A program made the translations under genes and the position numbers. The notes beneath the pieces are model-generated. The model had not been told where the DNA came from. It saw only the letters and a program-made list of their open reading frames with translations, and made no database searches. A stretch of DNA of 64,000 nt from Blastocystis sp. Blastoise (lineage: Eukaryota > Sar > Bigyra > Opalinata > Blastocystidae), in the NCBI GenBank assembly GCA_039096225.1, contig JBBPEB010000005.1, positions 739,501 to 803,500 on the forward strand. The letters are read 5' to 3'. Position 1 is the stretch's first letter. Each line of letters begins with the position of its first letter. Below, in pieces: positions 32,101 to 44,100 of this stretch.

Positions 32101-35100
32101 AAGAATGACGGATGAGGAAGTAGGAAGTAGGAAGGAAGAATGAAGAATGAAGAATGAAGAATGAAGAATGAGGAAGAAGGTAGTAGGAAGGATAAGGAAG
32201 AAGTAAAATGAAGTAGAAAGAAGGAAGAAAGAAGAAAAAGGAACAAGAAGACTATTAAACCTATATACAATAGAAAAAATATAAAAAGATAACATAAAAT
32301 AAATAAATAAATAAATAAATAAATAAATAAAATAAATAAATAAATATAATAAATATAATAAATATAATAAATATAATAAATAAATAAAAAACATAAATAA
32401 ATAAATAAATAAATAAATATAATAAATAAATAAATATAATAAATAAATAAATAAATATAATAAATAAATATATATAAATATAATAAATATAATAAATAAA
32501 TAAATAAATATAATAAATAAATAAATAAATATAATAAATAAATAAATAAATAAATAAATAAATAAAAAACATAAATAATAAATAATAAAAATGAAAACAA
32601 TAAATAAAATATAAATATATACCTAATAGAATAATCTGAAACCACAGACTAAGAAGAACGACATGAAAAAACGAAGACCACAACACATCAACAACATTTT
32701 CTTTCCTATAGAATAAAAATAATTAAAAACAATTTAATAGATGATATAAAAAGACAAAATAAATAATATAGATAATAAAATTAAATAATAACAAAAAGTA
32801 ATTAGTAAAAAATAAACAGATGTTAAGAAATAAATAATATATTTATATACCTGATAATAAGTAACCCATTTCACACAACCAGGACCACTTTAAGAACCAC
32901 TCACCACCACAACCAAGACAAATACAAGAGAATCCTATAAAAAAGTGTATTATTATAAATAAATAAATTAATATATACAAATAAATATAAAAATAATAAC
33001 TAAATAACATCAAATTAATTAATAAAACATACCCAGACAATCAATACAAACAAATATTTAAAAAATGTAAAAAACTATAGTTTTTGGGTACCCAAAATGT
33101 TTTTAATAAAAAATGTCCCTATTATCAGCTTAGCATAAGATAATAATAAAAATTCGAGGTTATTTATGATTCCTATTAATTTTTAAATATGCATATTTTA
33201 AATATTGTCCCTATTTTACAAAAGTTCAAATATGAATATGTTTTTGTTTTCTACATAAAAATACTTATTTTTATTAAATTATTAAATAAGATGCCTAGAA
33301 AAGGCAGAATGTCATCAAGGCGGAGGTCCTTGAATCAAAAAAAATACGTTTCTCAAAGACGGTCCAGTATGTATTGTATTTATTTTTTTTTTTATTATTC
33401 ATATATAGGTTCTTCTACTCAACAGGATGCAAGTATGGATGTCATTGATGGTGATGGTGCTTATCAATATGGTCTTGAAGGTATATATTTATACATTTCT
33501 TTTTGTTTTATTATTTTATATTATCTTAGACTCTTCTCTGTCCTTGGTGTCCTTTACTGATGATGGTATAATGTTTTCAAGTGGTCTTGAAGGTATGTTG
33601 TCAATCATTTGTTTTTATTTTTATATTTTTATTTATCTATAGGTTCTTCTGTTGTTGTGGACTCTGTTGCTGGAGCTATTGATGATGATATACACTCCAC
33701 TAATGGTCTTGAAGGTATGTTGTCAATCATTTATTTTATTTTTTTTTTATTTTTATTTATCTATAGGTTCTTATACTCATGATGATGTTGTTGCTGATGC
33801 TACTGATGGTGATGCTAACTCTTCTCATGGTCTTCAAGGTATGTAATCATTTATTTATTTATTTATTTTTAATTATTTCTTTTATTTCCTATTTATATGT
33901 TATTATAGGTTCTTCTGTTGCTATGAATGTTGGTGCTGATCTTAATCATAAAGAAGGTATATATAATATATTTTCTTTTTCTTCTTTTTGATTTACTTTT
34001 ATTTTATAAATATATATAGGTCCTTCTGTTCTGATAGTGTCTTCTGTTCATGGTACTGTATCTGATGGTGATCATCCTTCTAATGCTAAAGGTATATAGA
34101 TATATCATATATATATATTTTTTATTATTCTTTTAATTCTTTCTTATTTGTTTTTATATAGGTCCTTCAACTCAGTTAGTACATGGTCATTCTTCTATTC
34201 CTTCTTCAGAAGGTATATATATATATATATATATATGTATCTATGTTTATTCTATTTTATGATTCTATATAGGTGTGTCTTTTAATTTGGGATCGTGTGA
34301 CTCTGTTGTTGGTCTTGATATAGTTACTACTAATATATATAAAGGTATATATATATCATTACTATATATATGAGAATAGGCAAAAAAATTCCCATTGGTC
34401 AGTTTTTGGAAAAACCATTTGATTGGCTAATGTATACTATAGTTTGTCGCCGCAACTCCTCTAAACTTACGGGGAGTTAACTTTTGGCTGAAACACAGTT
34501 CAATACGATATAACGTGTAGTTGTGCACCGTATATTTGGTTAAGCGATATTATTAATAATTAAAAAGTTATTAATAAAAAAACAGAAAACATGATTTTTG
34601 AGTCGTTTTTGATTGGCTCTTTGGGATCATCCCGATAAAAATTGTTGACCAGACAATTGGAAAATAAACATGGGGTAAACTTGATTTTTTCTCAATCCCA
34701 CAATATACGTTATCCGTGTTTATTCTTTATATTTATCTACTTTTTAATACTTTTTCATATTGAACACGTGAGGCCTTAACGGTCAAATTTAGATTCTTAT
34801 TTTGACATGATATTCTGATTCAGGAGGTCGAAAAACCTAGGTGTACCAATTTTGAGCTCCTGAGGACGATTTTTGAGTGATCGATATTTTCTTTGATCTT
34901 CTTATAATCAACTAATATTGTAGTATTGTAATCAATAGGTCATCAAACTACTATATCTAAAACAAAGTCTTAAAATAATGAGTTTTAGTGTCACAATTTT
35001 GAAAAGTGTGAATTAAGTGGTCTTAGAGTGAGAGATTCAATATAATGACTTTTATTTAGTAAACTAGAGATAATACTCTATTCTATGTTAAAAGGAAAGT

Positions 35101-41100: not shown

Positions 41101-44100
41101 ATGTGAATTAAGTGGTCTTAGAGGATAAGATTCAATATAATGACTTTTGTTTAGTAAACTAGAGATAATACTCTATTCTATGTTAAAAGGAGAGTCAAAA
41201 TTATGATGGTCAAAGTGTATCACCAAATGACAAAATGTGTCTTAAAAAGTAAAAGTGTTTGCATATGTGTATAGAATCATGTATTAAGTATATTCTATGA
41301 ATAAGAACTTTAAATAAATAGTTTAAGGTTGCCAAATTTAAATAAATGTGTAAAACATAGTCTTAAACTATGAATAAAAAATTTATAGATTTTAATTAGT
41401 GTACAGCTGTAGTAGCTCTACAACATATCAAAAGTGCAAAGAAAATAATTTTTAGAGAGTGGATGTGTGAGGTGTTGTGAGAGTTATTAAAAATTTATTT
41501 TTACTTCAGTTTATTTAAAATCGTGAATTTCGTGCACTGTAGAAAAATTGAGTCAAAAAATCAACTCTAAGGGTCTTAAATTTAAAAAAATGTAAAAATG
41601 AGTGACTTAGAGGACGAGATTCAAAATAAGAGTGTTTATTCATTAAACTAGAGTGTATGAGCTATATTATGTTAAAAGAAGGGACGAAAATGTTTTGATC
41701 AAAGTGTATGACCAAATGGTAAAGTGTCCTTAAAAAGTCTAAAGTGTTGACTAATGTGCTTATAGAGTCATATAAAGTCTACTATGTAAATATTAGCTTT
41801 TAAAAATATGTTTAAGCCTTTCAATTAGTAAAAATATGTTCAAAGAGAGTCATAAAATGAGAGTTTTAAGAAACGAGATATTGTTCAGTATACACTAAGA
41901 GACACTCTACAACATATCAAAAATATAGCAAAAACTATTTTTAGAGACTGGATGTGTGAAGGGTTGTGAGAGTTATTGAAAAAATATTTTTACTTCAGTT
42001 TATCCAAAATCGTGTTTTTGGAACACTGTAGAAAAATTAACTTCAAAAATCAACTCTAAGGGTCTTAATTTTAAAAAATGTGAAAATGATTGACTTAGAG
42101 GACGAGATTCAAAATTCCCCATCGCTTTCATATAATTAGACAACACACTCTATATTATGTCAAAAGGAGGGATGAAAATATTTTGGTCGAAGTAAATGAG
42201 CAAATGCAAAAGGTTTACAAAATGTTTTAAAGTGATCACCAATGTGTAGCTATGGTCATATTAAGTAAAGTGTGTAAATATTAGCATTTAAAAATGAGTT
42301 TAAGTGTGTCAACTTTTCATAATGTGTCAAAAAGGGTCTTTAAGAAAGAGATTCAAAACATTTACTTTTATTTAATAAATAGTATGATAAACTCTATATT
42401 ATATCAAAAGACTGACGGAAACTGTTTTGATACAGTGGATCTTGAATGGGTAAAGTCTATTTAAAAGTTACTATTTTGAGTTATTTATGTTAAAATCATT
42501 ATTTGAGACGAATATAAAAATATTAACTTTTTAAATAATGTTTTAGTTGTCAAAGTTAGAATGAATGCTGACTTTGTTATGATTAAAGCTTTCTAATTCT
42601 TTTAAAAAGTATTAAAATGAGTTAAAATTATTATATTATGCTTATTTAAATGAATTTTATGAATTAAAAATACTTTACACTACTTCACATTGGTACTCAT
42701 TTCTAAAGTTATTGACTTTAAAAACTCAAAGAATGTTTTAAACAGTTGTTTAATTATTACTAAATACAAAATATATTTTAAAAATAAATTGTTGTGAAAA
42801 AATTGACTTAGAAAGTGATTTTAATTAAACAATAATTTTTTCTCTTTTTTAATTTCTTATTTAAAAAGTCTAAAATAATCTTATATCAGGAATTGAACCT
42901 GATTACAATCATAAAATAATTGTAACTCTCCATATAGAGTATAAGAAATTAATATTTAATAAATAATAAATAATATATATAATATATAATATATAATATA
43001 TAATAAATGACTCATATTAAAAACTATATATATATAATATATAAGATAAAAGATAATAAATATTTTTTATATACTCTTTATGCAGCCGCGGTCCGGGGCC
43101 GTTAGGCACTGGACCTGCGGCGTGACCCTAGTATATATAATATTATTTATTTATTTATACTTATACTATTGTATATATATATATAGGTGATGGTGTTAAT
43201 AATTCTTCAGTCGTTGATGGTGTCAACAATTCTTCAATTATTCAATGTATATTTATACTTATATTATATTCTATACTTATATAGGTTCAAATAAAGTTGT
43301 GGGTAAGTATTATTTATTATTTTAGTTTCTTTTTCTTTTGTTTTATTATTTTTTTTTTTTTCACAGATAATAGCTTTCTGTTGTCTTCTTTTTTTTTATT
43401 ATTTATTTATATATTTATTTACTAAGCTTAGCTTTAGCTACTTAGTATTTAAATATTTAATAGAATCCTTTCTTTTTTCATTTTTGTTTTGTTATTTTTT
43501 TTTTTATTTTAATTTTACTTTAATCGTATCGATTAACGGGAAGGTGTCGGATATTAAGATAATTTTTGAATTACTTAATATTAAATAGTGTTGAGTATTT
43601 TAATATTTGTATTTAATTTAATTAATACAACTATTGATTACCTATATGACTCATACTATTGCTGACTATTGTTCGCTTCTAACTCTATATAGTCTAACCG
43701 ATGTAATACTATCAATGATGAGATATCTAAGTGTTAAGATTCTTCACTTACTCACATTGTATATGATATTAACTGGTAGTTAGCTATATGTTTATAGAAT
43801 GTTGTAACAAAGCACAATAGCTATAGATGTCCTCTATGAGGTTGAATCATATAGATTGTTTAATAAATTATACAATATTAATTACCTATACTTATTTAAT
43901 ATTAGTTTTCATTAATTATAATATTATCTTTCATTACATTATAGTATTGAAGATAATTATTAATTAATAAAGTTTTTACTTTATATTATTTAATATATCA
44001 TACTATATGTATGTATTATTATATTAATAAAGGTTATATACTTTATATTAATAAATATATCATAGTATATCTATGTATTATTATATTAATAAAGGTTATA

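Follow-up and report, generated by a model that had tools for sequence, protein, structure and literature searches.

A Helitron chimera joining the 5′ end of an autonomous element to the 3′ end of a nested one, inserted into its probable donor in Blastocystis sp. Blastoise

Results

Organization of the Helitron nest

The window analysed here is a 64,000-nt stretch of the genome of Blastocystis sp. Blastoise (assembly GCA_039096225.1, JBBPEB010000005.1:739,501-803,500, forward strand), with a G+C content of 22% and a single tRNA detected by an RNA family scan. It holds a Helitron, named Hel-O, that runs from a TC at 29850 to a CTAG at 56551 and is interrupted by two non-autonomous Helitrons, N-c and N-d, and by a chimeric insert that carries the 5′ end of Hel-O and the 3′ end of N-c. 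For the genome searches described below, the 33.3-Mb assembly was used and the best 40 candidates of each search were scored; other contigs are designated C1, C3 and so on. The features of the nest are as follows.

29850..34355, + strand: U1, the 5′ part of the outer Hel-O, with the 5′ TC and the first short exons of the Rep/helicase (RepHel) gene (self-comparison, alignment and direct reading)
34356..43131, + strand: chimeric insert, from TC to hairpin-CTAG, between A34355 and T43132 (alignment, junction searches and folding)
43080..43131, + strand: N-c terminator used by the insert, a stem-loop with a GTTA loop 10 nt before the end, then CTAG (-17.9 kcal/mol, 0 of 200 shuffles as good)
43132..44723, + strand: outer Hel-O between the insert and the N-c site (alignment)
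43349..43403, + strand: differences of the outer Hel-O from the insert, at 43358, 43387, 43392 and 43403, all to T, plus a 1-nt gap (alignment)
44724..47404, + strand: N-c, a non-autonomous Helitron nested in the outer Hel-O between A44723 and T47405 (junction searches)
47405..49490, + strand: outer Hel-O, RepHel region ahead of N-d (alignment)
49491..52659, + strand: N-d, a second nested non-autonomous Helitron, inside the long RepHel frame (end scan and junction search)
52660..56551, + strand: outer Hel-O up to its own hairpin-CTAG, with Helitron_like_N and PIF1 helicase domains (domain search and folding)
56496..56551, + strand: terminator of Hel-O itself, of the same architecture (-20.1 kcal/mol, 2 of 200 shuffles as good)

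Both domains are carried by the open frame 52608-56315, the first codons of which fall in N-d (scores of 1.6e-56 for Helitron_like_N and 1.5e-64 for PIF1), and an uninterrupted relative of 12,075 bp at C10:16538-28612 contains a 1,559-aa stop-to-stop frame with the same two domains. At about 12.1 kb, and with these RepHel domains, Hel-O is an autonomous element. Over their 5′ ~1.4 kb, N-c and N-d are 91-92% identical to Hel-O, and their 3′ ends are their own. N-c lies in the same orientation as Hel-O in the RepHel gene region, probably in an intron; its site is 9 nt ahead of the end of an acceptor-like TATATATAG. N-d breaks the long RepHel frame at 49490/52660, so this copy probably encodes a disrupted protein, and movement of the chimera may have been in trans. 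The 5′ junction of N-d in Hel-O found a full match in the window only.

Six starts reading TCATTACTATATATATGAGAAT and five hairpin-CTAG ends, that is, ends of the TC/CTRR type, were counted in the window after a look-alike TCATTACTATATATATGAGAAT start at 49385 on the reverse strand had been dropped, with an A preceding all six starts and a T following all five ends. In the fetched tiles, an A stood before 23 of 23 TCATTACTATATATATGAGAAT starts and a T after each of the 19 ACCCTAG ends found, counts in which C1 and C10 overlap and from which eight internal, T-preceded look-alikes reading TCATTACTATATATTGACC were dropped. Folding gave one and the same hairpin, with GTTA as its loop and 10 nt from CTAG, for the ends of N-c, N-d and Hel-O (three of three). 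On the + strand of 29850-56551 there are 25 CTAGs, seven of them bare CTAGs inside the insert, and ACCCTAG is found only at the ends 43131, 47404, 52659 and 56551; three of these four ends were folded, the last 52 bases at 47404 being identical to those at 43131.

The chimera is a single insertion

A previous sequence-only reading of this DNA had noted that the region resembles two direct duplications of about 4.5 and 4.27 kb with both breakpoints at one A|T, and had proposed that one insertion accounts for both. Self-comparison of the window and base-level alignment recovered both duplications. No substitutions separate 29850-34355 (U1) from 34356-38859, the single difference being a 2-nt gap in a T run, and between 38860-43131 and 43132-47404 there were four substitutions and one 1-nt gap, all inside 55 bp. 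These were the alignments suggested at the time, and besides the near-identity of the copies they placed the two breakpoints, to the base, at the same A|T (34355/43132).

The sequence from 34356 to 43131 is a single insertion of 8,776 bp, with a left part of 6,095 bp derived from Hel-O (34356-40450) and a right part of 2,681 bp corresponding to N-c (40451-43131). It starts with TCATTACTATATATATGAG, a Helitron TC, and finishes with ...GCGGCGTGACCCTAG, a hairpin plus CTAG, so that the first apparent duplication begins and the second ends exactly where a Helitron should. The flanks read ...AAAGGTATATATATA upstream and TATATATAATATT downstream, and AAAGGTATATATATA joined to TATATATAATATT is exactly the uninterrupted sequence present at 38845-38872 within the insert. 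The same empty site was seen at all seven other Hel-O sites inspected (C10, C11, C20, C7, C6 twice and C1), of which those on C1 and C10 may belong to one region. No target duplication accompanied the insertion, which parted an A from a T within an AT run; the flanking runs, previously given as 9 + 8 = 17 nt, amount on recount to 10 + 8 = 18 nt of alternating TA, and the sum still closes. The exact TC and CTAG ends and the reconstituted empty site bear out the proposal that one event produced both duplications, and also that a new unit was formed from an autonomous 5′ end, the Hel-O TC, and a non-autonomous 3′ end, the N-c CTAG. When 200 bases around the 5′ junction (34256-34455) and the 3′ junction (43032-43231) were used as queries, all 200 matched here alone in the assembly. 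The insert has no Rep/helicase domain and therefore should be non-autonomous.

From the ATG at 33291, about nine short exons were readable directly, each followed by a GTAT...AG intron (predicted splicing), and the insertion point is 11 nt into one of these predicted introns. The earlier placement of the insertion in a RepHel intron is thus plausible, the intron itself being predicted. The roughly nine predicted mini-exons between 33291 and 34350 have about 17-26 codons each, and in several of them the residues ahead of GTAT are alike (GLEG or similar).

A second chimera with three 5′ ends

A chimera of the same plan was found at C10:1761-15518(-). Its 13,758 bp consist of a 4,252-bp 5′ part of a Hel-O copy, A, from its TC, a 3,103-bp 5′ part of another, B, from its TC, and 6,403 bp of a relative, C, up to its hairpin-CTAG; C is 81-82% identical to Hel-O over its 5′ 4 kb. 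Three 5′ ends are thus stacked upon one 3′ end. The unit is inserted cleanly at A55534|T55535 (window numbering) of another Hel-O, parts of which lie on both sides. The right end of C1 and C10 are the same region as far as compared, including ~1.4 kb past the neighbouring Hel-O, and their chimera may be counted as one event.

The same A-B-C order is present at C6:73397-59604(-), with 1 substitution and 50 gap bases over 13.8 kb relative to the C10 unit, and there C is followed by the remainder of B (8,975 bp, 99.967% identical to Hel-O). As this remainder follows C at C6 and not at C10, C6 holds the nest, and the C10 unit is a product with the terminator of C as its end. Genome searches found the B/C 5′ junction at C6, C10 and C1, and the C/B 3′ junction in full at C6 only. 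The insertion of B into A (C6, C10 and C1) lies at Hel-O ~34102/34103 in window numbering and shares its offset with the window site 34355|43132, both being 11 nt into two of the short predicted RepHel introns.

A third chimera

At C6:50629-73397(-), the 5′ part of A is joined to B and the unit ends at the CTAG of B. The A/B 5′ junction was detected at C6, C10 and C1 by genome search, whereas no match was found to a 27-base pattern for the remainder of A after the CTAG of B, up to 2 mismatches being allowed, and the sequence past this CTAG at C6 matched no fetched Hel-O. Therefore, this C6 unit is itself a chimera, with the start of A and the end of B.

Its joined flanks, used as a query, gave 11 matches, two of which were the C6 flanks themselves. 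All 150 bases were found uninterrupted, as paralogous empty sites, at 98-99% identity at C3:780108, C3:367837, C32:653252 and C4:1615424, and at 90% at C32:122982; C26:243290 matched over 8-150 at 97%, and the three remaining matches were partial, at 78-88%. When seven fetched loci were compared with 1 kb of each C6 flank, L050-L053 were contiguous with both flanks at 90-99%, L057 and L056, the latter with a gap of 2 bases, were contiguous with both at lower identity, and L054 matched the 3′ flank only. The C6 unit lies in a repeat of ~1 kb that carries inverted AAACCCGTGAAAGA-like motifs at either end; this target, seen in L050-L053 and in the C6 flanks, looks like a non-autonomous DNA transposon.

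Other copies and nests

A search for further copies ending at an N-type CTAG, which the sequence-only reading had recommended, gave at least 17 exact N-c 3′ ends among the 40 matches listed. Two of these were the window N-c and the insert, a C3 copy was left out, and 14 were examined. None of the 10 with both flanks found had a same-orientation Hel-O on the 5′ side only; for the other four, the 5′ flank was not found by a script that required an A before TC, which is no test of that A. The copy at C6:25562-28242 lies antisense in a Hel-O that is intact on both sides, the one at C6:41854-44534 has a reversed Hel-O stretch downstream, and that at 26994-29677 of the window, on the reverse strand, has Hel-O upstream, head to head with it in a TAA repeat at 172 bp.

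Among the four nests searched by junction (N-c, N-d, B/C and A/B), none was found to have moved with the outer remainder, save the conditional C6 case. Outer/inner 5′ junctions outnumbered the 3′ ones by 2 vs. 1 for N-c, 3 vs. 1 for B/C and 3 vs. 0 for A/B, this 0 being by pattern only.

A further candidate, C6:20915-1435(-), which looked chimeric at first, was set aside as a probable ordinary nest because, in the part aligned, the outer element seems to continue beyond the nested element. The left ends of C7 (C7:1-4454) and C20 (C20:1-11392) resemble two halves of one Hel-O and look like one ordinary nest, with Hel-O split at 32397/32398 by another Hel-O; an assembly join is also possible. 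N-d-type elements were found near Hel-O 44368-44381 at C6 and C7.

Discussion

The results are best explained, with high probability, by a transposition that started at the outer TC of Hel-O, stopped at the first terminator and re-inserted into Hel-O. N-c would have entered the RepHel region of Hel-O, oriented as Hel-O is. Transposition would afterwards have started at the outer 5′ TC of Hel-O and run 3′-ward, passing seven bare CTAGs and ending at the first CTAG with a terminator hairpin, that of N-c. The product would be the 8.8-kb chimera, with the 5′ end and first exons of Hel-O, an internal N-c 5′ end and the N-c 3′ end, which would then have entered the same Hel-O at an A|T in a predicted intron, 4.5 kb downstream of the Hel-O start. 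A rolling-circle stop at the first terminator met, as originally suggested, gains support from the two further chimeras of the same plan (C10/C1 and, conditionally, C6): all three units begin at the outermost TC, and those of the window and C10 end at the nearest downstream hairpin-CTAG.

Regarding the donor, the Hel-O/N-c 5′ junction was found at 100% in two copies, both in the window, and the N-c/Hel-O 3′ junction in full at 47404 only, so the donor was most likely this very Hel-O copy. The insert and the outer U1 also share a (TA)n length that is absent from all five other U1 copies aligned. That the element inserted "into itself", as the previous reading had it, thus agrees with N-c lying at the same site and with the shared (TA)n, but it is an indirect conclusion, and the insert does not carry four substitutions of the outer copy.

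These substitutions head the observations that weigh against our reading. They are missing from the insert and from all six other copies aligned, and of 17 other full-length matches to the 43349-43403 stretch in a genome search that does not show single bases, none exceeded 97%. The U1 of C7 also has 0 substitutions relative to the insert, so U1 identity alone does not pick out the donor. A third full match to the Hel-O/N-c 5′ junction, at 94%, was found at C23:285130-285329, with a partial match (46-200) to the 3′ junction at 97%; here, in another Hel-O copy, the A|T used by N-c holds a different N-type Helitron (C23:282473-285229(-), 92% identical to N-c), so that site sharing by itself is a weaker proof of descent than usual. 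This site suggests either that the same dinucleotide was hit twice or that an old nest was overwritten. Concerning the stop, the sample is small, with three events of which two are clear and one conditional, and the terminator of C now lies inside the C6 unit, so it was bypassed if C was present when the unit moved; C6 fits the first-terminator rule only on the condition that the A-B unit had already moved when C inserted into B.

If the donor was the outer copy, its four substitutions must be later; otherwise, a sister copy missing from the assembly would be the donor. Most simply, the outer copy acquired them later. They fall within 46 bp, the 8.8-kb pair being otherwise substitution-free, and we may speculate that such a cluster, 227-272 nt past the joint, was one event, possibly tied to the insertion.

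A single insertion could also have occurred with its 3′ end chosen differently, the Hel-O 5′ end being paired with any compatible hairpin end. The terminators of N-c, N-d and Hel-O have one architecture and similar sequence, so any could serve, and a passage of PMC4067079 mentions composite transposition of neighbouring Helitrons. However, in the two unambiguous cases, the window and C10, the nearest downstream terminator was used despite a later one, namely 56551 in the window and, if C6 resembles the donor of the C10 unit, the own end of B at C6:50629. This variant, which contests only the choice of end, is therefore unlikely. Still less likely is that the chimera was formed and circulated elsewhere and was inserted here from another locus. 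The absence of the four substitutions from the insert would agree with such an origin, but no other full Hel-O/N-c junction at 100%, nor the 3′ joint of the insert, is present in the assembly, and the shared (TA)n length ties the insert to the outer copy.

An assembly artefact is very improbable. The repeats are near-identical, and the ends of C1 and C10 hold the same region, so the assembly breaks at such repeats; nevertheless, a mis-join would hardly produce a TC and a CTAG end placed exactly at an A|T, an empty site that closes and differences between copies, and C6 and C10 show this plan again. Finally, two independent tandem duplications or unequal exchange, or a circle integrated through homologous recombination, are strongly disfavoured although the region reads as two direct duplications, given that both breakpoints are one A|T coinciding with a Helitron TC and CTAG and that circle recombination would leave a head-to-tail CTAG|TC joint, none of which occurs in the window.

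First-terminator stopping is not new as an idea. Section 16 and the Fig. 7 legend of PMC5148889 propose that chimeras of the Fusarium FoHelis arise by self-insertion, and the model given there, like ours, has a nick at the outer 5′ terminus and unwinding to the first 3′ terminus, leaving two 5′ ends and one 3′ end. In that account, the repeated 5′ ends of FoHelis are typically short (<200 bp), whereas the chimeras described here are of kilobase size and have empty sites; moreover, donor-like nests are still present for two of them, one has three 5′ ends and one lies in its probable donor. Multi-terminus Helitrons of maize are derived from nested Helitrons according to passages of PMC3288121, so that nests yield new units with mixed ends as they do here; the unit proposed there starts at the inner 5′ end and has several 3′ ends, whereas our units collect inner 5′ ends and lose the 3′ end of the outer element. 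For Helraiser, the hairpin as terminator and its bypass are reported in parts of PMC4778049 and PMC5876387. In the former, as here, hairpin plus CTAG ends the transposition of Helraiser/Helibat, with TC/CTAG at A|T, but bypass gains downstream DNA, whereas the early stop proposed here drops the outer 3′ part. Among the open-licence papers that the literature searches listed, judged by titles, abstract starts and passages, no report of a Helitron chimera in its own donor was seen. What is new here is a near-identical nest and product (C6/C10), the serial stacking of 5′ ends and insertion into the probable donor.

The 3′ end choice of Helitrons is usually inferred from scattered copies. A near-identical nest and product in one assembly make the first-terminator model countable: for a nest that has moved it predicts an excess of outer/inner 5′ over 3′ junctions, and N-c, B/C and A/B show such an excess. 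More tentatively, and with less than even confidence, these elements could form a self-feeding cycle of mutual insertion and first-terminator stops, every round contributing one more 5′ end and exchanging the 3′ end. On this view, the window would be a cis event, a chimera re-entering its own donor, and nested non-autonomous elements would be parasites hijacking the autonomous start. Non-autonomous Helitrons can, on the reading favoured here, appropriate the start of an autonomous element together with its first exons.

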